A DNA stretch of 64,000 nt. Source: Gillisia lutea (GTDB taxonomy: Bacteria; Bacteroidota; Bacteroidia; Flavobacteriales; Flavobacteriaceae). Under the pieces are notes generated by a model. It was not told the DNA's origin. It did no database searches and saw nothing but the letters and a program-made list of their open reading frames with translations. A program made the position numbers and the translations under genes. The stretch is taken from assembly GCF_021568705.1 (NCBI RefSeq), contig NZ_JAKGTH010000007.1, positions 310,001-374,000 of the forward strand. The letters run 5' to 3'. This document shows positions 20,255 through 40,702 of this stretch, piece by piece; within the stretch, counting starts at the first letter, position 1; each line of letters opens with the position of its first letter.

Positions 20255-23200
20255 TTATAAATCCACATTTAAACCGAATGTAAATGTTCTAGGAGTTGGA
20301 TAACGCCCGTTGTCAATTCCCATAAGTAAAGCATCTTGGTTAAAGGAACCAATTTCAGGATCGTAACCTCTATAGTTTGTGAACGTGTAAAGATTTTGAA
20401 CACTACCGTAAACTTTGATGTTATTTATGTTCAATTTATCCATCAAGCTGCTAGGCAGGCTATAACCAAATGTCAGGTTTTGAATTCTTAAATAGGAACC
20501 ATCTTCAACAACTCTACTTGAAATTTCATTGTTGAAAGTGTCACCGGCTACCGGTCTTGGAATATCTGTATCGGTATTTTCAGGAGTCCAGTAGTCTGCA
20601 GATTCCTGCGTCTGATTTCTATAGCGTGCATTTAATGATGAAGTATTCAACCATGTTAAGTTCATCACATCATTTCCATAAGATCCTTGTAAGAATAGGG
20701 ATAGGTCGAATGATTTATATTTGAAAGAGTTGCTGAAACCGTAAGTGAAATCAGGATGAGGATTCCCTATGATGGTTTTGTCATTTGCATTTACAACACC
20801 ATCTCCATTAACATCGGCATACTGAATATCTCCAAGCCACGTATCACCGTCTTCCGCAGAAAATGCAGTTCCAAATTGCACTGGCTGATCGGTAATAGTA
20901 TTTGCATCATTGAATATGCCAATTACCTTATACCCGTAATACATTCCTATTGGCTGCCCAACATTTGTAATTGTGGGAGCAATTGGAGAGTTTCCATTTA
21001 GGTTTGTTTCTCCTGTTATTACCAATCCGCTTGGAAGGTCAATTACTTCATTTTTATAATGAGAAAGGGTTAAGGTAGAGTTCCAAGAGAAGTCGTTTAC
21101 CCCAGTATTGTAAGATAATGTCAAGTCGGCACCTCTGTTTCTCATCTCTCCTAAATTAACAAAAGGAGCTCCAACACCGCCATTGTAAGGATCTACACCT
21201 ACTAAATAATCGGGAAGTGGTAACTGATAAAGGAAATCTTTTGATGTTTTCTCATACAATTCTATGGTTGTTTGAAGTTTGTTTTTAAAAGCTCCAAACT
21301 CTAAACCTATATTTGTTTGTATGGCCGATTCCCATTTTAGATCTGGATTGGCGATGTTAGATAAACCAAATCCGGTTCCTAAGCCTGTATTAAAGGTTGT
21401 TAAGGTAGCACCATATCGGTAATTTGGTATATTTTGATTTCCTGTTTCCCCGTAACCAACTTTAAGTCGGATATCCTGAAGAGCATTAAAATTGCTCATG
21501 AAGTCTTCGTTAGATACTTTCCAAGAAGCAGATACTGATGGAAAATAACCCCATTGATTATCTCCAAGCGGATCGAATTTAGACGATCCATCGGCTCTAA
21601 ATGAAGCTGTTATGCCGTATTTGTTATCAAAACTATATAATACCCTTGCAAAGAAGGATTGCAGTGCCTGACTCCCTTTGTATGCATCATTAGCTGCAAA
21701 TTCAGCATCCCCTAAGTTCAAGGTCTGAATATCGTTGGTCAGGAAACCTCTAGCAGTTGCAATTGTACCTTCCCAAGTAGATTCCTGTGCTTCATGTCCT
21801 AACAAAAGGGTAAGATCATGCTTGTTGTTAAAATTCTTGTGATAATTAATAAAGTTCTTAATAATCCAGAAAACACTGTTTTCCTCTCTTATGTTCAAAA
21901 CATTTTGCTCGTTAACATAACGTCCCCAGGCATAAGTTGGAGTAAATCTGTGATTTTTATTGAAATTGAAGTCCCCTCCAAATTCAGTTCTATAACTTAA
22001 TCCTTCAGCCAGATCAAATTCTACAAACACATTTCCTAAAAGCTTATTTCTTGTCAATTTGTTTTTGATGCTTAAAGCCAATGCCACCGGATTTAAAGAT
22101 CCTAAACCATCATCATCAATAGGTCCTGCAAAAGAGCCATCAGGGTTATAAACAGCCACATCTGGTGTTTGAAGTAAACCTAAACTTACTACCCCGTCGC
22201 GATTTCCGTTTATGGTAACATCATCTTTAGTTCTACTGCCTGTTAAGCTAATTCCAACTTTCACCCAATCTTTAACCTGTGCGTTTACGTTGGTTCTTAA
22301 ACTTATCCTGTCAAATCCGGAGCCAATTACTGTACCTTCTTGATCCAGATATCCTCCAGAAATGAAATAATCTACATTTTCTTTCCCACCGGAAAAAGAC
22401 AACTGATGGTTTTGCATGATAGCACGATCAAATATTTCTTTTTGCCAGTTTGTTCCAGAACCTAACAGTTCAATATTTGCGAACTCTATTCTAGGTTCAG
22501 TTCCTGTAAGGTCAGAGAATAGATTTTGGAGCCTTGCATAAGTTGGCAAGTCCATCATTTTTATAAGTTCTGTTGGCTCTTGAATTGCCAGATAAGAATT
22601 ATAAGATAGTTTACCTTCTCCTTTTCTACCTTTTTTAGTAGTAATTATTACAACCCCGTTGGCTCCACGTGAACCATATATTGCAGTAGCAGAGGCATCT
22701 TTTAAGATATCTACTGAAGCTATATCATTAGGGTTTAATGCTGCCAAAGGGCTCACTCCTGTATCTTGTTGTCCCCCAGAACCTACAGGGCTTCTCCCAC
22801 TGGTACTGGTGTTATTGGCATCTCCAGAAACAGGCACACCATCAATTACATACAGGGGTTCGTTGGAACCTGTAATTGAAGTTACACCTCGTATTTTTAC
22901 GGAAACCGAACTTCCGGGTTGTCCAGAATTTTGGGTTATAGTAACCCCAGCCGCACGCCCTTGCATTAACTGATCGATACTCACCTGCGGAATATCTTCA
23001 ATTTCTTTTGCATCAATACTGGAGACCGAGCCATTTACATCTTGCCTAGATTGGGTTCCATAACCAATTAATACAATTTCATCGAGATTCTCAGTGTTCT
23101 CCTCTAATTGAATATTCAGTGTTTTTAAGCCTTTTACGCTTACTTCTTTTGTTATAAAACCTACAAAACTGAAAACAATTACGGCATCATTGCCCGTTCG

Positions 23201-23419
23201 GATTTCAAAATTCCCATCGAAATCTGTAGTGGTTCCGTTAGTAGTATTTTTTTCGATTACATTGACTCCTAACAACGGAAGTCCACTAACATCGGAAACC
23301 TTTCCAGTAACTACTTTCTGTCCATAGCTCATCTGAGCTATACAACCAAAGATCAGTAGAAAGAAGATCTTGTTGTAGCGGTAAATACCGGATTTGCTTT
23401 TACCTAGAATTTTGTGCAT
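20255..23419 (-). CDS. susC: SusC/RagA-family TonB-dependent glycan transporter
   Basis: An outer membrane TonB-dependent transporter of about 1054 residues. I prefer the ATG at 23419, which yields a compact signal peptide ending MSYGQ; the frame extends to 23476. In order it has a carboxypeptidase-like regulatory domain (VVTGKVSDVSGLPLLGVNV), a TonB-box-like stretch, a plug (IDQLMQGRAAGVTI, PLYVIDGVPV, ATAIYGSRGANGVVIITTKK), a ~22-strand barrel and a C-terminal FTFGLNVDL. With SusD it imports mannan oligosaccharides into the periplasm. A shared PUL promoter element lies about 100-170 bp upstream. Confidence 0.95.
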   Translation of the reverse strand: MHKILGKSKSGIYRYNKIFFLLIFGCIAQMSYGQKVVTGKVSDVSGLPLLGVNVIEKNTTNGTTTDFDGNFEIRTGNDAVIVFSFVGFITKEVSVKGLKTLNIQLEENTENLDEIVLIGYGTQSRQDVNGSVSSIDAKEIEDIPQVSIDQLMQGRAAGVTITQNSGQPGSSVSVKIRGVTSITGSNEPLYVIDGVPVSGDANNTSTSGRSPVGSGGQQDTGVSPLAALNPNDIASVDILKDASATAIYGSRGANGVVIITTKKGRKGEGKLSYNSYLAIQEPTELIKMMDLPTYARLQNLFSDLTGTEPRIEFANIELLGSGTNWQKEIFDRAIMQNHQLSFSGGKENVDYFISGGYLDQEGTVIGSGFDRISLRTNVNAQVKDWVKVGISLTGSRTKDDVTINGNRDGVVSLGLLQTPDVAVYNPDGSFAGPIDDDGLGSLNPVALALSIKNKLTRNKLLGNVFVEFDLAEGLSYRTEFGGDFNFNKNHRFTPTYAWGRYVNEQNVLNIREENSVFWIIKNFINYHKNFNNKHDLTLLLGHEAQESTWEGTIATARGFLTNDIQTLNLGDAEFAANDAYKGSQALQSFFARVLYSFDNKYGITASFRADGSSKFDPLGDNQWGYFPSVSASWKVSNEDFMSNFNALQDIRLKVGYGETGNQNIPNYRYGATLTTFNTGLGTGFGLSNIANPDLKWESAIQTNIGLEFGAFKNKLQTTIELYEKTSKDFLYQLPLPDYLVGVDPYNGGVGAPFVNLGEMRNRGADLTLSYNTGVNDFSWNSTLTLSHYKNEVIDLPSGLVITGETNLNGNSPIAPTITNVGQPIGMYYGYKVIGIFNDANTITDQPVQFGTAFSAEDGDTWLGDIQYADVNGDGVVNANDKTIIGNPHPDFTYGFSNSFKYKSFDLSLFLQGSYGNDVMNLTWLNTSSLNARYRNQTQESADYWTPENTDTDIPRPVAGDTFNNEISSRVVEDGSYLRIQNLTFGYSLPSSLMDKLNINNIKVYGSVQNLYTFTNYRGYDPEIGSFNQDALLMGIDNGRYPTPRTFTFGLNVDL

Positions 23420-23520: not shown

Positions 23521-23587
23521 TCCAAAAATATTAATAAGGTTAAGTTTTTGTTAATCTTATTTTATCATTTATTAATGATATTTTTTC
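23521..23587 (-). promoter_or_regulatory. susC promoter with conserved upstream PUL element
   Basis: On the minus strand, TATTTTTGGA (23530-23521) is an exact TAnnTTTG -7 box, about 100 bp before the susC ATG. Exactly 28 bp upstream ends a 29-bp element (23587-23559) that matches the GH26-operon element at 24 of 29 positions without gaps, including 12 identical bases AAATGATAAAAT. The element contains a dyad TATCATT-N4-AATGATA (23563-23580). Probably the binding site of the PUL activator. Confidence 0.7.
23533..23561. repeat. inverted repeat inside the susC promoter spacer
   Basis: Arms AATAAGGTTAA (23533-23543) and TTAATCTTATT (23551-23561) pair with one wobble around a 7-nt loop. The repeat fills the region between the -7 box and the upstream conserved element. 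It is absent from the GH26 promoter, so it would be a susC-specific operator or chance symmetry in AT-rich DNA. Confidence 0.45.
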
Positions 23588-23715
23588 GAACTCGATGTTA
23601 TTTTGAAAAAAAAGGGGTGTTTAATTTAATTTATACCTAAAATGAATAGGATTGTAATAATCATTATTGCCAATTTCATAAATAATGAGCAATATTAAAA
23701 TCTTTACACTTACTA

Positions 23716-24714
23716 TTAATTATTCATTTTACAGACTTCGAATAACTTGGTTTTTACTAGTCTTCCTGAATTTGATAAATGGCTGTCTTTTGAGATTTGA
23801 CAAGGTTTAGTACCAGGAAGAAATGCGGCTGAAGATTCATTTTTTGATGCGAGAGACCAATTGCACCAGGAGAGTTTATTTTTATCCAGAAAATCCCACC
23901 ATTTGTTTGATTCCTCTTTGTCAATCATTCCGTCGCCAGATGCAGGTGAGGTACCAAATTCGGTTACAAATAAAGCGAGATCCTTATCAATTGCAATTTG
24001 CGCAATATCTCTTAGTTCCTGTTTATGAGTAGCTGCATAATAATGCAAGGTATATGCTATATTAGTTCCACTAATAGGATCCAAAGCGGCTAGGTCTACT
24101 CTTTGGGACCAATTTGGAGTACCACAAACAATGATATTATCGGGATCGTATTTGCGAATGGTGGCAATAAGCTCTTCGTGATACGGCTTCAGCGTTTCTG
24201 TCCAAGATACCTGTAAAGGTTCATTGTAAATTTCATAGATAATATTAGGATAGCCGGCATATTGCTGAGCAATTTCGCTAAAAAAGAGCTTGGCTTGCTC
24301 TGTATGATCTTCAGCGTGATGATCATGCCAGTCTACAATCACATAAAGACCCAACTCGATGGCTGCATCGATCACTCTTGTTATTTTTTGTTTTTCTAGA
24401 TCAGGATTTATTAAATACCCGTTATTTTCAACAGCCATTGCAGCCCTAACTACATCTATATTCCATGTATTTTTTAAAAGTGCTAAAGTCTTGTAGTTGT
24501 AGAATTGCGGTTGCCACTGACTCCAGAAGAGAGACATCCCTCTTAGTTGGGTCTGTTCTCCTTTTTCATTTAGCAAATACCTTCCTTCTATATTTAGCTG
24601 ACCGTTGATGGTTACCGGAGAAGGTGTCTTCGTGATGATTTCCTGAGCGCTTATTTTTAGAGTTGACAAAAAACTTAAAATGATGATAAAGAGAAAAGAA
24701 GAGGATTTTTTCAT
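23716..24714 (-). CDS. GH5 endoglucanase/glucomannanase (GH5_2-like)
   Basis: A 332-residue secreted clan GH-A enzyme with signal peptide cleaved near ISAQ (23). GH5 landmarks are RGMSLFWSQWQP (58-69), VDWHDHHAEDH (127-137), acid/base E165 in IYEIYNEP, HYYAATHK (224-231) and nucleophile E252 in FVTEFGTS. The pattern is nearest subfamily GH5_2, mostly beta-1,4-endoglucanases with some glucomannanases, so it likely cuts glucosyl-containing segments of glucomannan. It is encoded 11 bp after the AraC gene and 240 bp before susC on the same strand. Subfamily placement is by eye. Confidence 0.85.
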   Translation of the reverse strand: MKKSSSFLFIIILSFLSTLKISAQEIITKTPSPVTINGQLNIEGRYLLNEKGEQTQLRGMSLFWSQWQPQFYNYKTLALLKNTWNIDVVRAAMAVENNGYLINPDLEKQKITRVIDAAIELGLYVIVDWHDHHAEDHTEQAKLFFSEIAQQYAGYPNIIYEIYNEPLQVSWTETLKPYHEELIATIRKYDPDNIIVCGTPNWSQRVDLAALDPISGTNIAYTLHYYAATHKQELRDIAQIAIDKDLALFVTEFGTSPASGDGMIDKEESNKWWDFLDKNKLSWCNWSLASKNESSAAFLPGTKPCQISKDSHLSNSGRLVKTKLFEVCKMNN

Positions 24715-24725
24715 TCTGTCAATAT

Positions 24726-25598
24726 TTAAAGTACTCTCTTAATTCCGCTGAACTCATCACGGTACTGACTAGGAGTGCAGTTCTTATTCTTTTTAAATAC
24801 CCTGTTGAAATTGGCGATATTGTTAAAGCCACATTTAAAGGCAATTTCAGCAATGCTGAATTCTTTTTCAATTAACCATCTTGCGGCATATCCAATACGA
24901 GTGTCATTTACATATTCTATAAATGTTTTACCGGTCCGTTTTTTTATAAAGCGGTTAAAAGATACAGGACTCATATTCACAAGATTTGAAATTTCAGAAA
25001 GTGAAATTTTGTTCTGGTAATTTTCCTGAATATACTCGTAGATGATTTTTATTTTATCGCTATTCTCAAAATTCTTGTTATTAGAGGTGTAGGTGGAGAG
25101 CAGGCGTTGGTTTCTTGAATTTGCAAGATCATGAAGGATAGAGATTAATTCCATAAAATAATCGATGCTGTCAATCTTTGAAAGTCTCAATATTTTTGGT
25201 TTTATCTCTTCTGATATTTTTCGGGAGAATAAAATTCCATGAGTAGATCTTTCAAACATGTCCTTTATAGGTTTCATAATTCTCCTCCCTAATAATTTTG
25301 CGTCGAATAGATCATTATGAAACTGAATGGTTACTTCGTGAATTTTAGTTTGCGTACAATTATGTAACTCCCAACCATGTTGCAAATTTGGCCCTACTAA
25401 TACTAGTTCTATATCGCCTATTTCTTCCATGCTATCTCCAATCACTCTTCGTACCCCTTTTCCATTTAAAACAAAATTTAGTTCGAATTCAGGGTGAAAA
25501 TGAATAGGGAAGTCAAAATCGTCCTTCATCCTGTCGAAAACTAAAAAGCTATCTTCCGGGGCTAATGGGGTGATTTCTCGATGAATATCTTTGTACAT
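24726..25598 (-). CDS. AraC-family transcriptional regulator with N-terminal cupin
   Basis: A 290-residue regulator. Residues ~20-90 form a cupin sugar-sensing domain (FPIHFHPEFELNFVLNGKG). Residues ~185-285 hold two helix-turn-helix motifs of the AraC/XylS type (ISLSEISNLVNMSPVSFNRF and FSIAEIAFKCGFNNIANFNR, then KKNKNCTPSQYR). It is transcribed with GH5 and sits between the two main PUL operons, and is the only transcription factor in the locus. It is therefore the prime candidate to bind the shared element at 23559-23587 and 25621-25649, the latter only 23 bp upstream of its own start, suggesting autoregulation. Confidence 0.92.
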   Translation of the reverse strand: MYKDIHREITPLAPEDSFLVFDRMKDDFDFPIHFHPEFELNFVLNGKGVRRVIGDSMEEIGDIELVLVGPNLQHGWELHNCTQTKIHEVTIQFHNDLFDAKLLGRRIMKPIKDMFERSTHGILFSRKISEEIKPKILRLSKIDSIDYFMELISILHDLANSRNQRLLSTYTSNNKNFENSDKIKIIYEYIQENYQNKISLSEISNLVNMSPVSFNRFIKKRTGKTFIEYVNDTRIGYAARWLIEKEFSIAEIAFKCGFNNIANFNRVFKKNKNCTPSQYRDEFSGIKRVL

Positions 25599-25620
25599 GG
25601 TAATAATAAATTAGTGTTTA

Positions 25621-25687
25621 GAAAATATCTTATCAACAAATGATAAAATCATATTAATTTAATAAAATGCAGCGTGGTATTTTTGGA
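25621..25687 (+). promoter_or_regulatory. GH26-operon promoter with conserved upstream PUL element
   Basis: TATTTTTGGA (25678-25687) is an exact -7 box, identical over 10 bp to that of susC, and gives a leader of about 115 nt before the ATG at 25808. The 29-bp element at 25621-25649 precedes it by exactly 28 bp. It contains TTATCA-N5-TGATAA (25630-25646). A TTTAAT near 25658 could serve as a weak -33 box. Confidence 0.7.
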
Positions 25688-25807
25688 ATTCTTTAAATTT
25701 TCACACTCAAAAAAATGTATTTAACAAATTTCATAGGTTAAATATAAAATAAGATTTAGTTAATATTAAAATATTTTATCAACGATGTGCAAATTTTGTC
25801 TTTTTAT

Positions 25808-26935
25808 ATGAAGTATTTTATCAAAATATCGGCAATTTTATCAATATTATTTCTAATGCAGGCTTGTAAATCGCTCTCGACAGCTAATTTTAAAGACATT
25901 AAGCTTGCTGATGATAATGCAAGTAATCAAACAAAAGCTTTATACCTTCGAATACAAAATATCGCAAAAAAAGGTATTGCCTTTGGTCATCAAGATGCCA
26001 CGGCTTACGGAATTGGGTGGAAGCATAACGAAAATTCTAAGAAATTAAGAAGTGATATTAAGGAGGTTTCGGGTAGGTTTCCAGCTGTTCAAGGTTTTGA
26101 TTTAGGCCATATAGAGTTAGGGAATTCCACCAATTTGGATACTGTCTCTTTTTCGCTGATGAAAGATCATATTGTTAAAATGCATAAAAAAGGTGCGATT
26201 ATTACCTTCAGTTGGCATTTAGATAATCCTGTAACTAATAAAGATTCTTGGGATAGTACGCCTGCGGTTGCAGAGATTTTAAAAGGAGGAAGTGAACGAG
26301 AAAAATACGAGTTATGGATACGTAGATTATCTCAGTTTTTAAATTCTTTAAAGGATAAAAATAACAATGCTATTCCTGTGGTTTTTAGACCTTATCATGA
26401 AATGAATGGAGGTTGGTTTTGGTGGGGTGCAGGAAATTGTACTCCGGAGGAATACAAAGAGTTATGGCGACAAACCTTAAGCTTGTTAAAATCTAATAAT
26501 GTGCATAACGTACTTTATGCATTTTCTCCTAATACCTTAAATTCTGAACAAGACTTCGATTTATACTATCCCGGGGATGAGTATGTAGATATTTTAGGTG
26601 TTGATATTTACAATCACAGTGGTGATGAAGCATTCACTAATACCCTTAAAAATAATCTTGAAATTATAAAACGAAAAGCTCAACTGGCTAAAAAACCCTA
26701 TGCTCTTACCGAAAGTGGGAATGTAAAGGCAGGCTCAAATCCTAAATGGTGGTCGGAAGGCTTATATCCTGGAATAAAGGATAGCGGTATTGCCTGGGTT
26801 CTCCTTTGGAGAAACGCCCGAGTATCTCATTATTTTTCTACTTACAAACAGGAGGCTAGTGCCAATGATTTTAAAGAATTTGAACAGCTAGAAGAAATTT
26901 TATTTTTAAATGAGGTTAAAAAGATCTCTTACTAA
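25808..26935 (+). CDS. GH26 beta-mannanase/mannosidase, lipoprotein
   Basis: A 375-residue GH26 enzyme. The ATG at 25808 is chosen because it gives a lipoprotein signal (MKYFIKISAILSILFLMQAC, C20); a GTG at 25787 is the upstream alternative. The acid/base is E198 in FRPYHEMNGGWFWWG and the nucleophile E302 in ALTESGN. GH26 enzymes cut beta-1,4-mannan internally or release mannobiose from chain ends. The residues after the lipid Cys (KSLSTAN) have no acidic surface-export signal, so it probably faces the periplasm and trims imported oligosaccharides. It opens the eight-gene plus-strand operon. Confidence 0.93.
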   Translation: MKYFIKISAILSILFLMQACKSLSTANFKDIKLADDNASNQTKALYLRIQNIAKKGIAFGHQDATAYGIGWKHNENSKKLRSDIKEVSGRFPAVQGFDLGHIELGNSTNLDTVSFSLMKDHIVKMHKKGAIITFSWHLDNPVTNKDSWDSTPAVAEILKGGSEREKYELWIRRLSQFLNSLKDKNNNAIPVVFRPYHEMNGGWFWWGAGNCTPEEYKELWRQTLSLLKSNNVHNVLYAFSPNTLNSEQDFDLYYPGDEYVDILGVDIYNHSGDEAFTNTLKNNLEIIKRKAQLAKKPYALTESGNVKAGSNPKWWSEGLYPGIKDSGIAWVLLWRNARVSHYFSTYKQEASANDFKEFEQLEEILFLNEVKKISY

Positions 26936-26950
26936 AATCCTAACCATAAT

Positions 26951-28789
26951 ATGCTACAAGGCTTAGACATTGCAATTGTTTTACTTTATTTAATTGGGAC
27001 CATTATAATTGGTCTTGCTCTAAGGAAAAAAGCTCAGAAAAGTAAGGATGATTATTTGATGGGAGGGAAGGATCTGCCATGGTACATGCTAGGCTTGTCA
27101 AATGCTTCAGGGATGTTTGATATTTCAGGAACCATGTGGTTGGTTACGCTTACTTTCGTTTATGGGTTTAAAAGTATCTGGATCCCATGGTTATGGCCGG
27201 TTTTTAATCAGGTATTCTTAATGGTGTATTTGTCTACTTGGCTTAGACGTTCCAATGTAACTACGGGAGCAGAATGGATATTATTCCGTTTTGATAATGG
27301 TAAAGGAGGGAAATGGTCTCATACCATTATCGTAGTTTTTGCAATTTTAAGTTGCTTAGGATTTTTGGCGTATGGTTTTATTGGTTTAGGGAAGTTTGTT
27401 GAAATCTTCATTCCTTGGGAAATAGTAGGAGCCTATATTCCTTTTGATATTCCGGTTGCCTATATTCCGCACTTCTATGGTATTATTTTTACATTATTTG
27501 CTGTCTTTTATTCCGTTTTAGGAGGGATGTCTGGGATTGTATGGACAGATTTGCTGCAATATACCATCATGACTGTGTCATCTATTGCTATTGCGGTCAT
27601 CGCTTGGCAAGCCATGGGTGAAAACACGCTAAATATACCGGAAGGCTGGCTCAATCCATTTTTTGATTGGAACTTGAATATGGATTGGACGGGAATCGTT
27701 GATGAAGTCAATTCTAAAATTGCCTCTGATGGATATTCCTTATTTGGTATATTTTTCATGCTGATGGTTTTTAAAGGAATCTTATCAAGTATTGCGGGTC
27801 CTGCGCCTAATTATGATATGCAAAAGATACTTTCCACAAAATCTCCTATTGAAGCAGCTAAAATGAGTGCATTCTCTATAGCAGCTTTAATTCCTACAAG
27901 ATATTTAATGGTTGGTGGCTTTTCTGTATTAGCCATCCTATTTTATGATAAATTGAATTTGAGCACCGGAGGGATAATAGATTTTGAGAAGATTCTTCCC
28001 GCTGCAATAGAGCAGTTTGTTCCTGCTGGATTATTAGGATTGTTATTAGCTGGGCTTTTAGCCGCATTTATGTCCACGTTTGCAGGTACTTTAAACGCTG
28101 CCCAAGCATATTTAGTGAACGATATTTACCTTAAACATTACAATCCGGAAGCTACATCTTCAAAAATTAAGAGGATGAATTATGCAAGTGGAATTACCGT
28201 AGTGCTAATAAGTATAGTATTAGGATTCTTTGTAATGGATGTTAATTCAATATTACAGTGGATAGTGTCAGCATTATACGGAAGCTACGTAGTATCTAAT
28301 GTATTAAAATGGCACTGGTGGAGGTTTAATGGGGAAGGATATTTCTGGGGTATGCTCTCGGGGATAATACCTGCGCTAATTTTTCCGCTTTTCATAGACA
28401 CTTTAGATCTGTACTATTTCCCAATCATCTTATTGATCTCAATAGTAGGAAGTATTGTAGGAACTTATTCTGCACCGCCCACAAACGAAAAGGTACTTAT
28501 GGATTTCTATAAGAACACTAGACCATGGGGTTTTTGGAAGCCAATACATAAAAGGCTTTTACAAGAAGATCCAGATTTCAAGAAGAATGATGCTTTTACC
28601 CGAGATATGTTCAACGTAGTTATTGGTGTTTTGGCTCAGACTTTATTAGTGGTGATACCGCTTTACCTCATTTTACATCAAAATATCCCGGTTATGATTT
28701 CAACAGTGATACTTATTATTTGTTTGGTCATTTTAAAGAAGAACTGGTGGGATAAGATTAAAAAAGAATCACAATACGACAATCATTAA
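26951..28789 (+). CDS. sodium:solute symporter (SSS family), predicted mannobiose importer
   Basis: A 612-residue polytopic inner-membrane protein with about 13-15 hydrophobic helices. SSS landmarks include LRKKAQKSKDDYLMGGKDLP near the N-terminus, SNASGMFDISG in the core, and GLLLAGLLAAFMSTFAGTLN around residue 365. It lies between a GH26 gene and a GH130 phosphorylase, the same order as the mannan catabolic genes described in Bacteroides fragilis, where an SSS-type transporter feeds cytoplasmic epimerase and phosphorylase. The likely substrate is therefore beta-1,4-mannobiose or a short manno-oligosaccharide (inference from context). Confidence 0.9.
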   Translation: MLQGLDIAIVLLYLIGTIIIGLALRKKAQKSKDDYLMGGKDLPWYMLGLSNASGMFDISGTMWLVTLTFVYGFKSIWIPWLWPVFNQVFLMVYLSTWLRRSNVTTGAEWILFRFDNGKGGKWSHTIIVVFAILSCLGFLAYGFIGLGKFVEIFIPWEIVGAYIPFDIPVAYIPHFYGIIFTLFAVFYSVLGGMSGIVWTDLLQYTIMTVSSIAIAVIAWQAMGENTLNIPEGWLNPFFDWNLNMDWTGIVDEVNSKIASDGYSLFGIFFMLMVFKGILSSIAGPAPNYDMQKILSTKSPIEAAKMSAFSIAALIPTRYLMVGGFSVLAILFYDKLNLSTGGIIDFEKILPAAIEQFVPAGLLGLLLAGLLAAFMSTFAGTLNAAQAYLVNDIYLKHYNPEATSSKIKRMNYASGITVVLISIVLGFFVMDVNSILQWIVSALYGSYVVSNVLKWHWWRFNGEGYFWGMLSGIIPALIFPLFIDTLDLYYFPIILLISIVGSIVGTYSAPPTNEKVLMDFYKNTRPWGFWKPIHKRLLQEDPDFKKNDAFTRDMFNVVIGVLAQTLLVVIPLYLILHQNIPVMISTVILIICLVILKKNWWDKIKKESQYDNH

Positions 28790-28800
28790 TTCATTACAAT

Positions 28801-29988
28801 ATGGACTTTAAAGAAAAGAACACATTGCATAGTATCCCTAATTACGACTGCCTTGCAAAGAATCATAGGGAATTACTAAAAAGAACTAACAAGCCTCTTG
28901 AATATTCAAATGGAGTGTATAACCGATATGAAAATCCGGTAGTTACTGCGGCTCATGTGCCTTTAAACTGGCGGTATGATCTAAACCCAAAGACAAATCC
29001 CTTAGGTTTGGAACGTATTGGGATTAATGCCACATTTAATCCAGGATCAATTAAATGGAAAGGGAAATATGTGCTTGCCGTAAGAGTAGAAGGGAATGAT
29101 AGAAAGTCATTTTTTGCAATGGCGGAGAGTCCTAACGGAGTAGATAATTTTCAATTTTGGGAAAAGCCTATACAATTACCTCAAACCGAAGTGCCTGATA
29201 CCAATGTGTATGATATGAGGCTTACCGTGCACGAGGATGGTTGGATATATGGTATTTTTTGTACGGAAAGAAAGGACATGAACAATCCTCATGATACCAC
29301 CGCAGCGGTAGCAAATGCGGGAATAGTAAGAACTAAGGACCTTCTGAATTGGGAGCGCTTACCAGATCTTATTTCAACTTCCGGGCAGCAGCGTAACGTT
29401 GTGCTTCATGAAGAATTTGTAAATGGTAAATATGCCTTATATACAAGACCACAGGATGGATTTATTGAAGTAGGGCAAGGTGGAGGAATTGGTTTAGGAT
29501 ATGTTAAGGATATGACCAATCCTGTTTTGGAAGATGAAAAGATAATCAATGAAAAAGTATATCACACTATCTATGAAATGAAGAATGGCCTTGGACCGGC
29601 TCCTATTAAAACGGAAGAAGGATGGTTGCATCTTGCTCACGGGGTTAGAAACACCGCGGGCGGATTAAGATATACCCTTTATCTGTTTATGACCGATCTA
29701 AATGATATTTCAAAAGTGATCTATCAACCGGCAGGGTATTTTATGGCTCCTAATTATGAAGAAACTGTGGGGGATGTTCCAAACGTGCTTTTCTGTAGTG
29801 CATGGATAAAGGATGATGATGGTAAAGTATATATCTATTATGCTTCATCAGATACTAGAACACATGTAGCTGTGTCTACTGTTGAAAAGCTTTTGGATTA
29901 CACTAAGAATACTCCCAAAGATCAGTTCACATCAAGGGGTTCTGTTGATACAATTATTAAGCAAATCGAAAAAAATAACAGCTTATAA
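28801..29988 (+). CDS. GH130 beta-mannoside phosphorylase (likely 4-O-beta-mannosyl-glucose phosphorylase)
   Basis: A 395-residue cytoplasmic protein (no signal peptide) with the five-bladed propeller pattern of GH130. Conserved parts include ERIGINATFNPGSIKWKGKY, TNVYDMRLTVHEDGW with D138 in the place of the family's general acid, and RNTAGGLRYTLYLFM. The length and its pairing with an AGE epimerase point to subfamily 1, which converts mannosyl-glucose and phosphate to mannose-1-phosphate and glucose. A mannobiose phosphorylase (subfamily 2) is the alternative. Its stop overlaps the next start by one base (TAATG), so the two are coupled. Confidence 0.92.
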   Translation: MDFKEKNTLHSIPNYDCLAKNHRELLKRTNKPLEYSNGVYNRYENPVVTAAHVPLNWRYDLNPKTNPLGLERIGINATFNPGSIKWKGKYVLAVRVEGNDRKSFFAMAESPNGVDNFQFWEKPIQLPQTEVPDTNVYDMRLTVHEDGWIYGIFCTERKDMNNPHDTTAAVANAGIVRTKDLLNWERLPDLISTSGQQRNVVLHEEFVNGKYALYTRPQDGFIEVGQGGGIGLGYVKDMTNPVLEDEKIINEKVYHTIYEMKNGLGPAPIKTEEGWLHLAHGVRNTAGGLRYTLYLFMTDLNDISKVIYQPAGYFMAPNYEETVGDVPNVLFCSAWIKDDDGKVYIYYASSDTRTHVAVSTVEKLLDYTKNTPKDQFTSRGSVDTIIKQIEKNNSL

Positions 29989-31181
29989 TGAGCAAAGTAA
30001 TTCCCACAATTTTCTATAAAGAACTGGAGCAAGAACTCAGTGTGATCACCCAGTACTGGGAACTAAACGCAGTAGATTCAGAAAATGGAGGCTTTGTGGG
30101 ACAAAGGGATCATTACAATAATCTTGTAGTAAATGCTAATAAGGGAATAATTTTGAATTCCAGGATTCTATGGTCGTTTTCTGCAATAGCCAATTATTCA
30201 GAAAATTTCAATTTAGTACCCATGCTGGAACGGTCCTATACCTATTTAAAAGATAATTTCAGAGACAAAAGATACGGAGGGGTTTATTGGGAATTGGATT
30301 TTAAAGGACAACCGGTAAATAAAAAGAAGCAAGTATATGCTCAGGCATTTACTATTTATAGTCTTTCAGAATACTATTTGTATTCTAAAAATGAAGAGGC
30401 TAAAAAATGGGCTATTTCCCTTTTTGAACTGATTGAAAAATATGCGCTTGATAAGCAAAAGGGAGGATATATTGAGGCCTTTCAAGAAGATTGGTCGCCA
30501 ATTAACGATATGCGCCTTAGCAATAAAGATAAGAATGCTTCTAAAACTATGAATACACATTTACATGTATTGGAAGCTTATACCACACTTTATAAGATCT
30601 ATCCTGAAGTGAGACTTAAAGCAGCTTTAGAAAATCTTGTGGAGTTATTTCTTGAGAAATTCCTGAACTCCGATTATAATTTTGAATTGTTCTTTGATGA
30701 CGATTGGAACTTACAAAGTGATATCATTTCTTTCGGACATGATATAGAAGCGTTATGGCTAATTATAGAGGCAGCTAAAGTTACAGGGAATCAAGAACTT
30801 TTAAAGCAAACTGAAGCTGTGGCTATTCCCATAGCTGATAGTTTTTTGGCCAAAGCTTATATCAAAGGAAAAGGAGTTCTAAACGAGGAGGATCGCCTTT
30901 CAGGAGAGGTAGATACCGATAGGCACTGGTGGCCGCAGGCAGAAGCCATGGTGGGACTTTTTTATGCTTATAAACTTTCCAAAAACAATAAATACGCAAA
31001 CGCTTTACTGGATATTTGGGAATTTACCACAGAGCATATTATAGATCATAAAAATGGAGAATGGTTCTTTAGAGTTGATGAGAATTATATTCCCTACAAA
31101 AATGAAAATAAATTAGGAATGTGGAAATGCCCTTACCATAATTCACGTGCATGCATTGTATTACTTAAATCACAATTATGA
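29988..31181 (+). CDS. cytoplasmic AGE-family cellobiose/mannobiose 2-epimerase
   Basis: A 397-residue (alpha/alpha)6-barrel protein without signal peptide. AGE-family motifs are NTHLHVLEAYTTLYK (~186-200), ISFGHDIEALWL, and RHWWPQAEAMVG (~310) with the active-site histidines. Length fits cellobiose 2-epimerases, which turn beta-1,4-mannobiose into mannosyl-glucose, exactly the substrate of the preceding GH130 enzyme. One-base overlap with GH130 and four-base overlap with the following GH26 show tight coupling. Confidence 0.93.
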   Translation: MSKVIPTIFYKELEQELSVITQYWELNAVDSENGGFVGQRDHYNNLVVNANKGIILNSRILWSFSAIANYSENFNLVPMLERSYTYLKDNFRDKRYGGVYWELDFKGQPVNKKKQVYAQAFTIYSLSEYYLYSKNEEAKKWAISLFELIEKYALDKQKGGYIEAFQEDWSPINDMRLSNKDKNASKTMNTHLHVLEAYTTLYKIYPEVRLKAALENLVELFLEKFLNSDYNFELFFDDDWNLQSDIISFGHDIEALWLIIEAAKVTGNQELLKQTEAVAIPIADSFLAKAYIKGKGVLNEEDRLSGEVDTDRHWWPQAEAMVGLFYAYKLSKNNKYANALLDIWEFTTEHIIDHKNGEWFFRVDENYIPYKNENKLGMWKCPYHNSRACIVLLKSQL

Positions 31182-32431
31182 AAAAAATTACCTTCCTCTC
31201 TGTTTTAATGAGCCTTAGTCTTCTAATTGGTTGTAGTAAAGATGAAGAAGGTTTTAATCCGGAAACACCTCCAAAAGAAGAAACTCCTACTGAAACTCCG
31301 GAAGAAACTCCACAAGGTTTTATTCTACAACCGGAAGAAGCCAGAAGTTATATGGTGGATGCTGCCGCTACAGATGAAACAGTGGCGCTTTTCTATAATT
31401 TAAAGACCTTATCTGATTCTCATTTTGTAGTGGGGCAGCAAGATGCTTTTTCGGCTTTTTATAATGATATAGCAGGAGATTCTGATATGAAAAAGACAAC
31501 CGGCAGTGATCCAGGAATGTTAGGATCGGACTTTATGTTCATTACCGACGACCAAAATGATGGTTCTTCAAATAATTGGTTCTACCAACAAGAGAGCGGT
31601 ATTCGTAATAATGCTATTAAGGCGTATAATAATGGAATGCTTAACATCTTCTGTTGGCATTTTCGTGAGCCTTTTGAAGGGAATTCATTTTATACTTCAG
31701 AAATGACAGAGTTTCAAAAAGGGAATGCTTTCAAAAGTATTTTACCAGGAGGAGAAAATCATGAGTATTACAAGGAGAAACTTCAAAAAGTAGCAGAAAT
31801 AGCGAAAGGTCTTATAGGGCAGGATGGAAGTCTTTCTCCTCTTATTTTTCGTCCTTTTCATGAGTTCGACAAAGATTTCTTCTGGTGGGGAGCTCCCTAC
31901 AGTACTCCAGAAGAGTTTAAAACCGTGTGGAGGTTTACAGTTGAATATTTACGAGATGAATTAAATGTACACAATATCTTATATGCCTTTTCTCCAGATA
32001 ACAGCTATACAACAGAGGCCGGATACCTTGAAAGGTATCCCGGTGATGAATATGTAGACATAGTAGGTATGGATAATTATGGCGATCTGGCTAGTCAGGA
32101 TGGGGCACGTTTGAATCTTGCCAATCAGAAATTAAAAGTAGTGTCAGATATAGCTATAGAAAAGGTGAAAATAGCAGCTTTAAGTGAAACTGGATATTTT
32201 GTAACTCCTTCATCAAGTACCTTGCCTCCAAATTTCTATTCAAAAAATCTTTATAATGTTTTAACCGATAGTGATGTTCAGGTTGGGTTTATGATGTTCT
32301 GGCAGAATTATTCAGATTCCTATACCGTACCCACTCCAGGAATGCCTGGAGAATCAGACTTTCTGAACTTTGTAGAAAAAGAGGAAACCTATTTATTAAA
32401 TGATATGCCTTCAATGTATAGCATTCAGTAA
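31178..32431 (+). CDS. GH26 beta-mannanase, predicted surface-exposed lipoprotein
   Basis: A 417-residue GH26 enzyme with a lipoprotein signal (SLLIGC, C19). The Cys is followed by SKDEEG, which matches the acidic lipoprotein export signal that sends proteins to the cell surface in Bacteroidetes, and then by a Pro/Glu/Thr-rich linker (~27-47). The acid/base is E229 in FRPFHEFDKDFFWWG and the nucleophile is E337 in ALSETGYF. These features fit the endo-acting mannanase that makes the first cuts outside the cell. The ATG overlaps the epimerase stop (ATGA). Confidence 0.93.
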   Translation: MKKITFLSVLMSLSLLIGCSKDEEGFNPETPPKEETPTETPEETPQGFILQPEEARSYMVDAAATDETVALFYNLKTLSDSHFVVGQQDAFSAFYNDIAGDSDMKKTTGSDPGMLGSDFMFITDDQNDGSSNNWFYQQESGIRNNAIKAYNNGMLNIFCWHFREPFEGNSFYTSEMTEFQKGNAFKSILPGGENHEYYKEKLQKVAEIAKGLIGQDGSLSPLIFRPFHEFDKDFFWWGAPYSTPEEFKTVWRFTVEYLRDELNVHNILYAFSPDNSYTTEAGYLERYPGDEYVDIVGMDNYGDLASQDGARLNLANQKLKVVSDIAIEKVKIAALSETGYFVTPSSSTLPPNFYSKNLYNVLTDSDVQVGFMMFWQNYSDSYTVPTPGMPGESDFLNFVEKEETYLLNDMPSMYSIQ

Positions 32432-32452
32432 AACATTAAAAACTATAAACCC

Positions 32453-33745
32453 ATGCGATACCTAAAAAAAATACACTTTATAAAAATTGTCTTATTGCTG
32501 TTATTTGCTTCTTGTAGTACTGTAAAGCCAATAACGGTAAAGGAGGGGAAATTTTATAAAGGAGATCGACCTTATTACTTTGTAGGAGCAAATTATTGGT
32601 ACGGGCCTTTAATAGCCGCAAAGAATATTGGAGATCGCTCCCGTTTAATTCAGGAATTGGATGAAATGAAAGCTTTGGGAATTGATAACCTGCGGATTTT
32701 GGTGGGAGCTGAGGGAGGAAATGAGGATTTTCAAGTAAAACCGGCTTTACAGCCTAGACAAGGGGAATATAATCAGGATCTTTTAGATGGTCTGGATTTT
32801 TTACTTGCTGAAATGGCAAAGAGAGATATGTATGCGGTTCTTTATTTAAATAATAACTGGATCTGGTCTGGTGGAATGTCTGCTTATCTGAACTGGAACG
32901 GATATGGAGAAGTTGCAAATCCTTTTTTAGAGAAATATAGCTGGGAAGATTATTTCAATTATACCCAGCAATTCCATACCTGTACTCCTTGTCGTGAAGC
33001 TTTTAAAGATCACGTGAAATTTATTGTAGGGAGAACAAATTCATATAATGGAAAAAAATACATCAAGGATAATACTATTATGTCTTGGCAGGTTGCAAAT
33101 GAGCCCCGAATTTTCACAGAAGACGACCGTGAACCTTTTAAAGATTGGTTAGATGAAGTAGTAGATCTGTTAGAAACACTAGATCCAAATACTCTAATTT
33201 CTACAGGAGCAGAAGGGAAAGCCAGTTATCTGCAGGAAATTGAGACCTATAAAATGTTGCATGCAAACCCTAATATCGATTATTTAACCATGCACATGTG
33301 GCCTAAGAACTGGCAGTGGTATTCTATTGATGATGAAGCGGGTTCTACAAAAACATCCATAGAGAAAGCATATCAATATATAGATGAACATATTGAAGTT
33401 GCTGAAAGCCTTAAAAAACCAATAGTGCTCTCTGAATTTGGTTTCCCGCGGGAAAAAGAAAGTTTATCTTTAAATGCCTCTGTAGAAAACAGAAATACAT
33501 TCTATAAGGCCTTATTTCAACGATTGGAAGATAGCTACAAGCAGCAAGGTGTACTGGCTGGAGTTAACTTTTGGGGGTATGCTGGAATTGCTAAAACCGA
33601 TGAAGTAAAAGGAAAGTGGGAAACTGGAGACGATTTTACGGCAGATCCTCCACAAGAACCTCAAGGTTTAAATTCAGTGTTTTCAAAAGATACGTCAACT
33701 TTGAAGCTTATTAAAGAGTATAACGATATTGTAAATAAAAGATAG
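32453..33745 (+). CDS. GH5 subfamily 7 beta-mannanase, lipoprotein
   Basis: A 430-residue GH5_7-type enzyme. The lipoprotein signal ends LFASC (C21). Landmarks are FVGANYWYGPLIAA, LRILVGAEGG, acid/base E217 in SWQVANEPRIF, MHMWPKNWQW, nucleophile E328 in VLSEFGFPRE, and NFWGYAG. GH5_7 contains nearly exclusively endo-beta-1,4-mannanases and mannosidases. No acidic export signal follows the lipid Cys (STVKPIT), so a periplasm-facing location is likely. It is separated from the preceding GH26 by 21 bp and from GH3 by 1 bp. Confidence 0.92.
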   Translation: MRYLKKIHFIKIVLLLLFASCSTVKPITVKEGKFYKGDRPYYFVGANYWYGPLIAAKNIGDRSRLIQELDEMKALGIDNLRILVGAEGGNEDFQVKPALQPRQGEYNQDLLDGLDFLLAEMAKRDMYAVLYLNNNWIWSGGMSAYLNWNGYGEVANPFLEKYSWEDYFNYTQQFHTCTPCREAFKDHVKFIVGRTNSYNGKKYIKDNTIMSWQVANEPRIFTEDDREPFKDWLDEVVDLLETLDPNTLISTGAEGKASYLQEIETYKMLHANPNIDYLTMHMWPKNWQWYSIDDEAGSTKTSIEKAYQYIDEHIEVAESLKKPIVLSEFGFPREKESLSLNASVENRNTFYKALFQRLEDSYKQQGVLAGVNFWGYAGIAKTDEVKGKWETGDDFTADPPQEPQGLNSVFSKDTSTLKLIKEYNDIVNKR

Positions 33746-33746
33746 A

Positions 33747-36065
33747 ATGAAAAAATATATTTTTCTTCCCGTTTTAGTTGTGTCTATTTTCACAATTACT
33801 GGTTTCAATATAAATACCAACAGGAATATGTCAGTTAAAAATACAGGAAATGATACCATTACAGCAAAAGTAGATTCATTACTGCAGTTAATGACTCTTG
33901 AAGAAAAGGTTGGCCAAATGAATCAATATAATGGTTCGTGGGATGTAACGGGACCAACTCCAAAAGGAGGTGATGCTGAAACTAAAATGGAACATCTACG
34001 AAAAGGTTGGGTGGGTTCTATGCTTACGGTTCGCGGCGCCAAAGAAGTTAGGGCAGTACAAAAAATTGCTGTAGAAGAGAGCCGACTGGGAATTCCGTTA
34101 ATTATTGGTTTTGATGTTATTCATGGGTATAAAACCTTAAGTCCTATTCCCTTGGCTGAATCTGCCAGCTGGGATATGGAAGCTATAAAACGATCGGCTG
34201 AGGTTGGAGCAGCAGAGGCGTCCGCATCCGGAATTAACTGGACATTTGCTCCTATGGTGGATGTATCTAGAGACCCAAGATGGGGTCGTGTTATGGAAGG
34301 TGGAGGGGAAGATCCATTTTTAGGAAGCAAAATTGCCATGGCAAGAGTGCAAGGTTTTCAAGGGGATGATCTTTCAAAAATAAATACCATTGCTGCCACT
34401 GCCAAGCACTTTGCCGCTTATGGGTTTGCAGAAGCAGGTAGGGAATATAATAAAGTAGATATTGGTACAGCTACCCTTTATAATATTGTTTTACCACCTT
34501 TTAAGGCTGCTAAAGAAGCTGGGGTAAGATCGTTTATGAATGGTTTCAACGAGCTTAATGGAGTGCCGGTAACTGGCAGTAAACTTTTACTAAGAGACAT
34601 ATTAAAGGATAAATGGGACTTTAAAGGTTTTGTGATCTCCGATTGGGCTTCTATAGCAGAGTTGACCATTCATGGATACGCTAAAGATGATAATCAGGCC
34701 GCAGAATTAGCTGCAAAAGCAGGTGTGGATATGGATATGGAATCTGGTGTTTATATTAAGCATTTAGTAGGTTTGGTAAAAGACGGAACTGTTAGCGAAG
34801 AGGTAATAGATGATGCAGTTAGAAGGATCTTGCGAGTTAAATTTGAGCTAGGTTTATTTGATGATCCTTATAAATATTGTGACAAAGCTAGAGAGAAAGT
34901 AGTAGTTGGAAGTAAAGAAAATCATGAAGCAGTGCTGGATATGGCAAAAAAATCTATCGTACTTCTTAAAAATGAAAACAGTTTATTGCCTTTAAAGAAA
35001 AAGGGGCAAACGATAGCATTAATTGGTGCCTTGGCTTCCGATGATAATAGTCCTTTAGGGAGCTGGAGAATTGCTTCTGATGATAATACAGCAGTTTCTG
35101 TTCTTGAAGGAATGAAAAAATATACAGATAATAAGTTGATTTTTGAAAAAGGTGCCGATCTATTAACACAGGCTCCCACATTTATAAATGAGCTTAATTT
35201 CAATACTTCAGATAAAAGCGGATTTCCAGCAGCCATAGAAGCAGCTAAAAAAGCAGATGTAGTGGTGTTGGTTCTGGGAGAACACGGTTTCCAGAGTGGA
35301 GAGGGGAGAAGTCGAACAAATTTGGATCTTCCGGGTGTACAGCAAGAGCTAATGGAAAAAATGTATGAAGTTAATCCTAATGTGGTATTGGTTTTAAACA
35401 ATGGTAGACCATTAGCAATAGAATGGGCAGCCAATCATATTCCGGCTATAGTTGAAGCTTGGCAATTGGGAACTGAAAGTGGGAATGCTATTGCACAGGT
35501 TTTATATGGAGATTATAACCCTAGCGGGAAACTTCCTATGTCCTTTCCTCGTAATGTTGGTCAGATTCCTGTTTATTATAATCATAAAAATACCGGGAGA
35601 CCGATAGATCCAGAGCCGGGAGCAAATATGGTGTTTTGGTCTCATTATTCAGATGTAAAAAGCACTCCTTTGTATCCTTTCGGATATGGATTGAGCTATA
35701 CAAATTTCAGTTATAGCAATTTGAAACTGGATAAAAAAAACTATGGAGTTTCTGAAGAGGTTAAAGTTTCAGTAAATGTTACTAATACTGGTAATTATGA
35801 TGGGAAAGAGGTTGTGCAACTTTATATTAGAGACCTTTATGGAAGTCTGGTAAGACCGGTAAGAGAACTGAAGGGCTTTGAACTTGCTGCCCTGAAAAAA
35901 GGAGAAACAAAAACTATTCAATTTATTCTGAATAAGGAAACCTTAGGTTTTTATAATGCTGAAGGCGAGTATGTTGTTGAGCCTGGTGATTTTAAGGTTT
36001 TTGTTGGTGGAAGCTCTGATGCACAATTACAAGATTCATTTACGTTGTTAGATTCAAAATTATAA
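33747..36065 (+). CDS. GH3 beta-glucosidase-like exo-hydrolase (BglX-like), periplasmic
   Basis: A 772-residue GH3 enzyme with an N-terminal signal sequence. The (beta/alpha)8 domain has IGFDVIHGYKTLSPIPLAES, the metal/substrate His segment TAKHFAAYG, and nucleophile D299 in VISDWAS. The alpha/beta sandwich follows (KSIVLLKNENSLLPL, VLVLGEHGFQSGEGRSRTN) and a fibronectin type III-like domain ends the protein. It would release terminal beta-linked glucose (or mannose) from glucomannan oligosaccharides in the periplasm. It resembles BglX over its full length; preference for gluco- or manno-linkages is not readable. Confidence 0.92.
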   Translation: MKKYIFLPVLVVSIFTITGFNINTNRNMSVKNTGNDTITAKVDSLLQLMTLEEKVGQMNQYNGSWDVTGPTPKGGDAETKMEHLRKGWVGSMLTVRGAKEVRAVQKIAVEESRLGIPLIIGFDVIHGYKTLSPIPLAESASWDMEAIKRSAEVGAAEASASGINWTFAPMVDVSRDPRWGRVMEGGGEDPFLGSKIAMARVQGFQGDDLSKINTIAATAKHFAAYGFAEAGREYNKVDIGTATLYNIVLPPFKAAKEAGVRSFMNGFNELNGVPVTGSKLLLRDILKDKWDFKGFVISDWASIAELTIHGYAKDDNQAAELAAKAGVDMDMESGVYIKHLVGLVKDGTVSEEVIDDAVRRILRVKFELGLFDDPYKYCDKAREKVVVGSKENHEAVLDMAKKSIVLLKNENSLLPLKKKGQTIALIGALASDDNSPLGSWRIASDDNTAVSVLEGMKKYTDNKLIFEKGADLLTQAPTFINELNFNTSDKSGFPAAIEAAKKADVVVLVLGEHGFQSGEGRSRTNLDLPGVQQELMEKMYEVNPNVVLVLNNGRPLAIEWAANHIPAIVEAWQLGTESGNAIAQVLYGDYNPSGKLPMSFPRNVGQIPVYYNHKNTGRPIDPEPGANMVFWSHYSDVKSTPLYPFGYGLSYTNFSYSNLKLDKKNYGVSEEVKVSVNVTNTGNYDGKEVVQLYIRDLYGSLVRPVRELKGFELAALKKGETKTIQFILNKETLGFYNAEGEYVVEPGDFKVFVGGSSDAQLQDSFTLLDSKL

Positions 36066-36108
36066 CTATAAATGTTTAATTTTATGAGCTAATTTAAAAA
36101 TCAACGCA

Positions 36109-37080
36109 ATGCTTAACTACCCATTAAAATTCACTCCTATCTTAAAAGAAAAAATATGGGGTGGTAATAAATTAAGGGAAATACTCAATAAAGATTCTAA
36201 TCAGGAAAATCTTGGGGAGAGCTGGGAAATATCTGGAGTGAGTGGAGATATTTCGGTAGTTGAAAACGGTTCATTAAAAGGAACTAATTTAAACGAACTT
36301 ATTGCTACATATAAGGGCAAATTTTTAGGAGAAAAGATCTATAAAAAGTTTGGAAAAGATTTCCCTTTGTTAATCAAATATATCGATGCTAAAACTGCCT
36401 TGTCTGTACAATTACATCCTGGAGATGAGCTGGCTAAAAAGCGCCATAATTCTTTTGGGAAAACCGAAATGTGGTATATAATGCAGGCTGATGAAAATGC
36501 TAATATCAACGTTGGTTTTAAAGAGACAATTAGCAAAGAAGATTATATAAAGCATCTTGAAGAGAACAAGATCACTGAAGTTCTTAATTTTGAAGATGTA
36601 AATAAAGGTGATAGTTTTTTCATAAATACCGGAAAAGTACATGCCATAGGTGCCGGTGTGCTCTTGGCAGAAATTCAGCAAACTTCTGATATTACCTATA
36701 GAATATATGACTGGGATAGAACAGATAATGATGGAAATGCGCGTGAATTACATACCGATCTTGCACTGGATGCAATAGATTTTGAGAAGAAAGATGATTT
36801 TAAGTTGAACTATGATAAAGTTGAAAATGAGTCTTCCAATATTGCAAGTTGTGAGTATTTCACAACTAATTACTTGCCTGTAAAAGGAAATCTAAAAAAG
36901 GATTATAGCAATACCGATTCTTTTATAATTTATATGTGTGTGGATGGGAATGCGGCAATTACAGTAAACGGACATGCTGAAGCTATAAAGCAAGGACAGA
37001 GCATACTTATTCCTGCTGAAAATAAAGAAGTGTTAATCTCTTCTCCTGGTTGTGAGCTTTTAGAAGTGTATGTGAAATAA
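36109..37080 (+). CDS. manA: mannose-6-phosphate isomerase, class I
   Basis: A 323-residue type I phosphomannose isomerase with cupin fold. The zinc-binding residues lie in VQLHPGDELA, GKTEMWYI and GKVHAIGAGVLLAE, and the N-terminus FTPILKEKIWGGNKL is typical of the short bacterial form. It interconverts mannose-6-phosphate and fructose-6-phosphate in the cytoplasm, the last step that brings mannan-derived mannose into glycolysis. A phosphomannomutase for mannose-1-phosphate from GH130 is not in the window. It is the last gene of the plus-strand operon, followed by a strong terminator. Confidence 0.95.
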   Translation: MLNYPLKFTPILKEKIWGGNKLREILNKDSNQENLGESWEISGVSGDISVVENGSLKGTNLNELIATYKGKFLGEKIYKKFGKDFPLLIKYIDAKTALSVQLHPGDELAKKRHNSFGKTEMWYIMQADENANINVGFKETISKEDYIKHLEENKITEVLNFEDVNKGDSFFINTGKVHAIGAGVLLAEIQQTSDITYRIYDWDRTDNDGNARELHTDLALDAIDFEKKDDFKLNYDKVENESSNIASCEYFTTNYLPVKGNLKKDYSNTDSFIIYMCVDGNAAITVNGHAEAIKQGQSILIPAENKEVLISSPGCELLEVYVK

Positions 37081-38533: not shown

Positions 38534-38534
38534 A

Positions 38535-39533: not shown

Positions 39534-39541
39534 TCTCGTAA

Positions 39542-40621: not shown

Positions 40622-40651
40622 TTTGTATTATTTTTTAATATGGATGATATG

Positions 40652-40691: not shown

Positions 40692-40702
40692 AATTTCTAG
40701 AT

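Follow-up and report, generated by a model that had tools for sequence, protein, structure and literature searches.

We analysed a 64,000-nt stretch of the Gillisia lutea genome (GCF_021568705.1, contig NZ_JAKGTH010000007.1, positions 310,001 to 374,000 of the forward strand), hereafter the window. Its gene content is that of a predicted polysaccharide utilization locus (PUL) of the β-mannan type. Two divergent operons of this locus, one headed by susC and the other by a GH26 gene, share an upstream element, and an AraC-family regulator is encoded between them. The element is very probably the operator of this regulator, which would bind it as a head-to-tail dimer and activate the β-mannan operons. 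The repeat within the element, its spacing, its conservation, its target genes, its near-restriction to genomes with an orthologue of the AraC protein and the lack of a -33 box can all be read from the sequences.

Architecture of the repeat and the core promoter

A preliminary description of the window had reported a 29-bp element in the susC and GH26-operon promoters, followed at a fixed distance by a -7 box. The coordinates, the 24/29 identity between the two copies, their common 12 bases, the 28-bp distance and the common 10 bases TATTTTTGGA are all correct, and the -7 box TAnnTTTG is exact in both promoters. A scan of the whole genome (3,176,629 bases) for AAATGATAAAAT-N28-TAnnTTTG found just these two promoters, and the reversed pattern gave no match. 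Within the window the pattern has two matches, compared with none in 100 dinucleotide shuffles.

The 28 bp between the shared sequences had been described as an unrelated spacer. The distance is right, but 11 of the 28 positions match, and the first 7 bases belong to the element because they complete a proximal half-site that is conserved across relatives. This became apparent from 36 distinct sites, two of them from the window, which were picked solely by TGATAAAAT-N28-TAnnTTTG, with no use of the distal sequence. Conservation in these sites runs on to position 15 (TGATAAAATaaTATyA). It also extends upstream, with a G at position -20 in 29 of the 36 sites and in 18 of the 25 sites that remain after thinning to 75% identity. 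When the proximal 16 bp were compared with all upstream sequence, offset 21 alone stood out, with a correlation of 0.58; the other offsets between 4 and 40 gave 0.26 or less. The element therefore consists of two 16-bp half-sites, directly repeated and separated by 5 bp. The predicted functional unit is thus 37 bp long and consists of a weak distal half-site, the gap and a strong proximal half-site with the above consensus; the 29 bp described earlier span the distal half-site and the initial portion of the proximal one. Two alternative readings of the repeat were rejected. An inverted-repeat (palindromic) reading of TGATAAAATAATATCA gave a best inverted correlation of 0.38 in 73 sites, compared with 0.58 for the direct repeat. 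The repeat is also not a general rule for all PUL promoters: in 18 motif-free TAnnTTTG promoters from the same loci, offset 21 gave 0.354 +- 0.034 and other offsets gave up to 0.361.

The element has the features of an AraC-type direct-repeat operator: both half-sites point the same way, about 21 bp apart, and the proximal one adjoins the core promoter of the target, where TAnnTTTG follows after a gap of 21-22 bp. The half-sites would lie at about -70 to -55 and -49 to -34, because the -7 box is placed at -12 to -5 in the available text of an earlier study (PMC9723704). As a promoter for sigma-A (sigma-ABfr), the core promoter has TAnnTTTG and lacks TTTG or TTG near -33. Of 73 sites, 4 have a TTG that begins 17-29 bp ahead of the -7 box, and the -33 element is therefore considered missing. 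The accessible part of a study on Flavobacterium johnsoniae likewise describes the -33 motif as not identifiable (PMC7366714).

Conservation, targets and the link to the AraC protein

We searched for relatives of the AraC protein in 299 genomes from the family, that of G. lutea included, and in further contigs from Salinimicrobium, Christiangramia, Leeuwenhoekiella, Salegentibacter, Zunongwangia, Winogradskyella, Gelidibacter, Aquimarina and others. Matches in the 299 genomes numbered 173 at E<=1e-40 and 46 at E<=1e-113; we chose the latter cut, corresponding to about 58% identity or more, to define orthologues. We also collected 86 large loci around AraC relatives, of which 82 remained after four duplicates were dropped, the window being excluded. 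Distant paralogues, with identities as low as 45%, are represented in this set, as are some close relatives.

In the 82 loci, a scan for TGATAAAAT followed by TAnnTTTG with any spacing from 0 to 79 gave 47 pairs. The spacing was 28 in 34 pairs and 29 in 4 (38/47), no other spacing occurred in more than two pairs, and two control motif pairs had no peak at 28. Spacing and sequence are conserved over many genera despite divergent spacers. The preliminary description had held that absence from related PULs, or presence at many unrelated genes, would speak against a functional element. Neither occurred, and the element is found again at orthologous mannan operons in marine flavobacteria.

A position weight matrix (PWM) was built from the 36 sites; its background maximum was 17.4 on 1.44 Mb of Markov-resampled sequence. 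At a score of 17.5 or more it found 109 sites in 66 of 83 sources (the 82 loci and the window). The gene downstream is a susC homologue in 48 cases, GH26 in 31, a symporter in 8 and the GH9 gene in 4; the remainder precede GH3 (3), GH130 (2), GH27 (1), an epimerase (1) or other genes (9), and two are unassigned. These other targets and further hits include MFS-type sugar transporters, GH5, a GMC oxidoreductase, a Gfo/Idh/MocA oxidoreductase and a protein with carbohydrate-binding modules. With a matrix made from 24 susC-promoter sites, 33 of 35 GH26-operon upstream regions exceeded the 99th percentile of 268 control genes. This result is supportive rather than clean, since the joint matrix had served to select the susC sites and most of the controls lie inside operons.

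Some individual sites extend the range of targets. A site in genome G113 (L194:7985, minus strand, score 48.3) is very strong, shares a contig with the AraC gene, some 2.5 Mb away, and precedes a gene for a 602-aa protein with CBM60 and CBM10, beside a divergent GH32 gene; this target is a possible unlinked member of the regulon. In L100:14564, L102:5349 and L104:14389 (scores 31.1, 37.5 and 17.8) the proximal half-site is 68-71 bp before genes for MFS-type sugar transporters, which suggests that some relatives may use a different inner-membrane transporter.

The AraC protein itself has the C-terminal double helix-turn-helix of the AraC/XylS family (PF12833, E 3.7e-22; PF00165, E 1.4e-17), and in Foldseek this domain aligns closely to solved AraC-type DNA-binding domains. 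Its predicted structure (mean pLDDT 82, pTM 0.59) consists of a cupin-like barrel, a helical linker and the double helix-turn-helix. Foldseek matched ToxT, Rns and CsvR along the whole length at TM-scores below 0.45 and gave weak matches to the AraC dimerisation domain and to cupins; a Pfam scan of the protein found no ligand-binding domain at E<=0.001. In an alignment of 26 AraC sequences, one of them merely 53% identical overall, both predicted recognition-helix regions contain invariant residues (e.g. V212, F214, R216 and F217; N263, F264, N265, R266 and F268).

Across the 299 genomes the element follows the orthologue of this protein. The pattern TGATAAAATNNTAYNA-N(18-22)-TANNTTTG occurs in 27 genomes, namely in 26 of the 46 with the orthologue and in 1 of the 253 without (Fisher p 7e-24); its reversed control occurs in 3 genomes. 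In G. lutea this pattern catches the GH26-side site only. A profile search at E<=1e-4 found the element in 35 of the 46 orthologue genomes and in 2 of the 253 others (G199 and G033); in G199 the site adjoins an AraC that is 53% identical. In genome G108 the AraC orthologue lies on contig C1, and both mannan operons, with sites scoring 36.2 and 29.7, lie on contig C2. The tie thus goes beyond linkage, and this speaks for action in trans. In 17 sources no site reaches 17.5. Eleven of these are loci of second-copy or more distantly related AraC genes (L107, L110, L114, L117-L123 and L060), and two (L070 and L075) come from genomes with sites elsewhere. Among the eight second-copy paralogues listed at 49-61% identity, six are in loci without a hit of 13 or more (L107, L114, L118, L119, L120 and L122), and two are in loci with such a hit (L105 and L112). 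Geometry, conservation and co-occurrence best support the reading first proposed, namely an activator site at about -40 to -70 that the local AraC protein recognises.

Several observations weigh against this reading. The co-location of element and regulator is partly built in, because the pattern, the matrix and the profile were made after sites had been seen beside AraC genes; the absence of the element from other genomes is not built in by their design. The strict pattern is absent from 20 of the 46 orthologue genomes, and four AraC orthologues of 65-69% identity (L085, L091, L095 and L096) have no site of at least 17.5 nearby. At E<=0.01, the limit of the search, the profile gives a weaker contrast, with 40 of 46 orthologue genomes against 23 of the 253 others (63 of 299 in all), these 23 matches being mainly partial and close to the limit. 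The profile match in G033, before a peptidase gene, is unexplained; AraC matches at E<=1e-40 are absent from this genome. G108 contains another, weaker AraC match (~1e-46 to 1e-40) of unlisted position. A third copy of the element in the window, described below, is not listed by the profile search of the G. lutea genome and is not matched by the stricter patterns. Lastly, the geometry alone does not name the reader, because the operators of hybrid two-component system (HTCS) regulators share it, as set out in the available text of PMC3878776.

Binding by the AraC protein could also mean something other than simple activation: the protein might mainly repress, or act as a dual regulator looping between sites. 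We consider this unlikely. A distance of 22 bp separates the GH26-side site from the start codon of araC. Of the 56 divergent pairs of araC and a site scoring 20 or more, 48 have the site edge between -15 and +31 bp relative to the start of the araC ORF (open reading frame); these distances are rough because the first possible codon was taken as the ORF start. Further copies of TTTTATCA are found downstream at 25774, 25816 and 25836. Against this, the element stops 21-22 bp before the -7 box and covers neither the box nor the start, a -33 box is missing as expected for activation, and the half-site signal directed towards araC is weak. Autoregulation through a second, araC-directed site is not claimed, as 7 out of the 68 upstream regions score above the 99% background and several of these are reflections of the partly self-complementary divergent site.

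The three TTTTATCA copies correspond to the half-site core on the opposite strand, facing araC. They are 42 and 20 bp apart and lie in the leader and the start of the GH26 gene. TTTT[AG]TCA is present at one or more positions in 7 of 35 GH26 gene starts; five other gene sets have 0-2 such genes each. The copies could be extra operator half-sites or an accident of codon usage.

It is quite improbable that another trans-acting factor, most plausibly an HTCS, reads the element in place of the AraC protein. The AraC-type DNA-binding domain of HTCS makes the same 21-bp direct-repeat operators, and HTCS_Man of Bacteroides has two 16-bp sites with a 5-bp spacer in the accessible text of PMC3878776; in Muricauda, the β-mannan PUL has genes for an AraC-type factor as well as an HTCS, according to the part of PMC9860051 available. 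In G. lutea, Reg_prop sensor repeats (PF07494) are present in two ORFs, on contigs C6 and C8, and in none on C7, the contig of the PUL, a search restricted to sensors of this type. A Pfam scan of 27 window proteins found no HTCS, which is not the pattern of an HTCS regulon, and it is the AraC orthologue that the element follows across genomes. Chance similarity in AT-rich intergenic DNA (the G+C content of the window is 36%) or a recent duplication, given that both promoters serve one locus, is a negligible alternative in view of the empty shuffles, the two pairs found genome-wide and the spacing peak conserved in relatives with divergent spacers.

The third copy and the genes of the locus

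Control had first been ascribed to two operons. Both named promoters do carry the element, which is longer than described, and three operons of the locus are probably controlled. A third, weaker copy (at 46209, minus strand), outside the preliminary description, has a PWM score of 29.3 and was not a training site. Sites like it precede homologues of the GH9 gene in L083, L087, L042 and L202. A pattern written to admit all three copies matches exactly three places in the G. lutea genome, and its reversed control matches none. In the profile search of this genome, the two main sites rank first (E 1.3e-9 and 4.4e-9); the next match is partial (E 0.002) and lies inside an ORF on contig C11. The short region with the third site (46146-46276) separates the GH9 cluster from a divergent second epimerase-like gene (46277-47638, plus strand).

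The features are collected in Table 1. The GH26 gene cluster is read as a putative single operon from its gene order, and the first GH26 start is probably the ATG at 25808. GH5 and araC are probably on one transcript. In the segment 23716-25598 (minus strand), GH5 may use the araC promoter rather than an activated one, because it lies 11 bp downstream of araC in the same orientation.

Table 1. Coordinates of the repeat copies, predicted core promoters and genes in the window.
Feature	Position	Strand	Remarks
susC (TonB-dependent receptor)	20255..23419	minus	heads operon susC-susD-TIG-GH27; ORF as listed extends up to 23476 from TTG, in-frame ATG at 23419 read in the sequence
-7 box, susC promoter	23523..23530	minus	TATTTTTG; predicted transcript start ~23518
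Proximal half-site, susC promoter	23552..23567	minus	TGATAAAATAAGATTA; PWM 45.7, a training site
Distal half-site, susC promoter	23573..23588	minus	CGAAAAAATATCATTA; direct repeat of proximal at offset 21
GH5 gene	23716..24714	minus	same strand as araC, 11 bp downstream
AraC-family regulator	24726..25598	minus	290 aa; proposed reader of the element
Distal half-site, GH26-operon promoter	25620..25635	plus	AGAAAATATCTTATCA; edge 22 bp from first base of araC start codon
Proximal half-site, GH26-operon promoter	25641..25656	plus	TGATAAAATCATATTA; PWM 44.2, also a training site
-7 box, GH26 promoter	25678..25685	plus	TATTTTTG; predicted transcript start ~25690
GH26 cluster	25787..37080	plus	GH26-SSF symporter-GH130-epimerase-GH26-unknown-GH3-mannose-6-P isomerase-like
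Third-copy gene cluster	37154..46145	minus	GH9-GH26-unknown-CE2-aldo/keto reductase-SASA esterase
-7-like box, third promoter	46164..46171	minus	TAATTTTA; spacing 29, i.e. 1 bp longer
Third double half-site	46194..46230	minus	TGAAAAAATGATATAG-N5-AGATAAAATAGTATTA; heads the GH9-GH26-unknown-CE2-aldo/keto reductase-SASA esterase cluster

Proposed mechanism and comparison with known systems

We infer AraC binding, activation rather than repression, the identity of the ligand and the transcript starts, and propose the following mechanism. A mannan-derived sugar would bind the cupin-like N-terminal domain of the AraC protein. An AraC dimer would then occupy both half-sites head-to-tail, from about -70 to -34, the 21-bp offset corresponding to two helical turns. 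The proximal subunit may take the place of the missing -33 element and recruit RNA polymerase, similar to class II activation. The SusC/D import operon, the GH26/GH130/epimerase operon and the GH9/GH26/esterase operon could in this way be switched on jointly. Less certainly, the GH26-side site, given its place near the araC start codon, may repress araC as well.

More tentatively, the element might represent a family-wide class of promoters in marine Flavobacteriaceae. In such promoters, a one-component cupin-AraC protein bound rigidly 21-22 bp from TAnnTTTG would touch the primary sigma factor directly in place of a -33 element. It would coordinate β-mannan import, depolymerisation and phosphorolysis as one regulon that includes unlinked operons, as in G108, and its own gene.

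For PULs of marine Bacteroidetes, regulation has mostly been deduced from the genes nearby. With its exact spacing, a conserved operator makes a β-mannan regulon testable and predicts more distant members, such as MFS transporters and GH27 and GH9 operons. The element could also serve as part of an inducible promoter, with a defined site for the activator, in organisms whose -33 elements are difficult to recognise. The preliminary description knew of no earlier account of the element, and no description of the motif was found in the literature searched here, which did not cover RegPrecise; three papers with the literal string TGATAAAATAATAT bear unrelated titles.

As a predicted operator, the motif itself is new but its kind is familiar, that of a sugar-sensing gene switch; it is counted to this kind because its geometry matches that of AraC-type and HTCS operators. 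In E. coli, AraC binds araI1-I2 of pBAD, two direct-repeat half-sites about 21 bp apart that abut the core promoter, and carries a cupin-type sugar-binding domain. The G. lutea element differs in its half-site sequence, in having the Bacteroidetes -7 box TAnnTTTG instead of -35 and -10 elements, and in having no demonstrated looping site. According to the available text on XylRA (PMC12125979), this positive regulator of a marine xylan locus in Vibrio has an AraC-type DNA-binding domain, and several operons of its locus carry AT-rich direct repeats. Unlike the system here, XylRA has a LacI-type ligand domain, responds to xylose and belongs to Gammaproteobacteria. CgrA of Zobellia (ZGAL_3159; PMC5698469) is a one-component, AraC-family positive regulator of carrageenan genes in a marine flavobacterium, and its deletion delays growth on the substrate; the substrate differs from that here, and the accessible text gives no operator. 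FG28_RS02325 of Muricauda is an AraC-type factor expressed from a mannan-induced flavobacterial β-mannan PUL (PMC9860051); the part of that paper available gives no operator, and its main text does not contain the word 'promoter'. The element has the same geometry as the HTCS operators of Bacteroides thetaiotaomicron, for which the accessible text reports an AraC-type domain and predicted direct repeats averaging 21 bp apart upstream of SusC/D loci (PMC3878776). The proposed reader here is a one-component cupin-AraC protein acting on β-mannan genes, whereas HTCS_Man is a hybrid sensor kinase of an α-mannan system (PMC3878776). This likeness suggests that one-component AraC proteins and HTCS sensors may share a common operator geometry.

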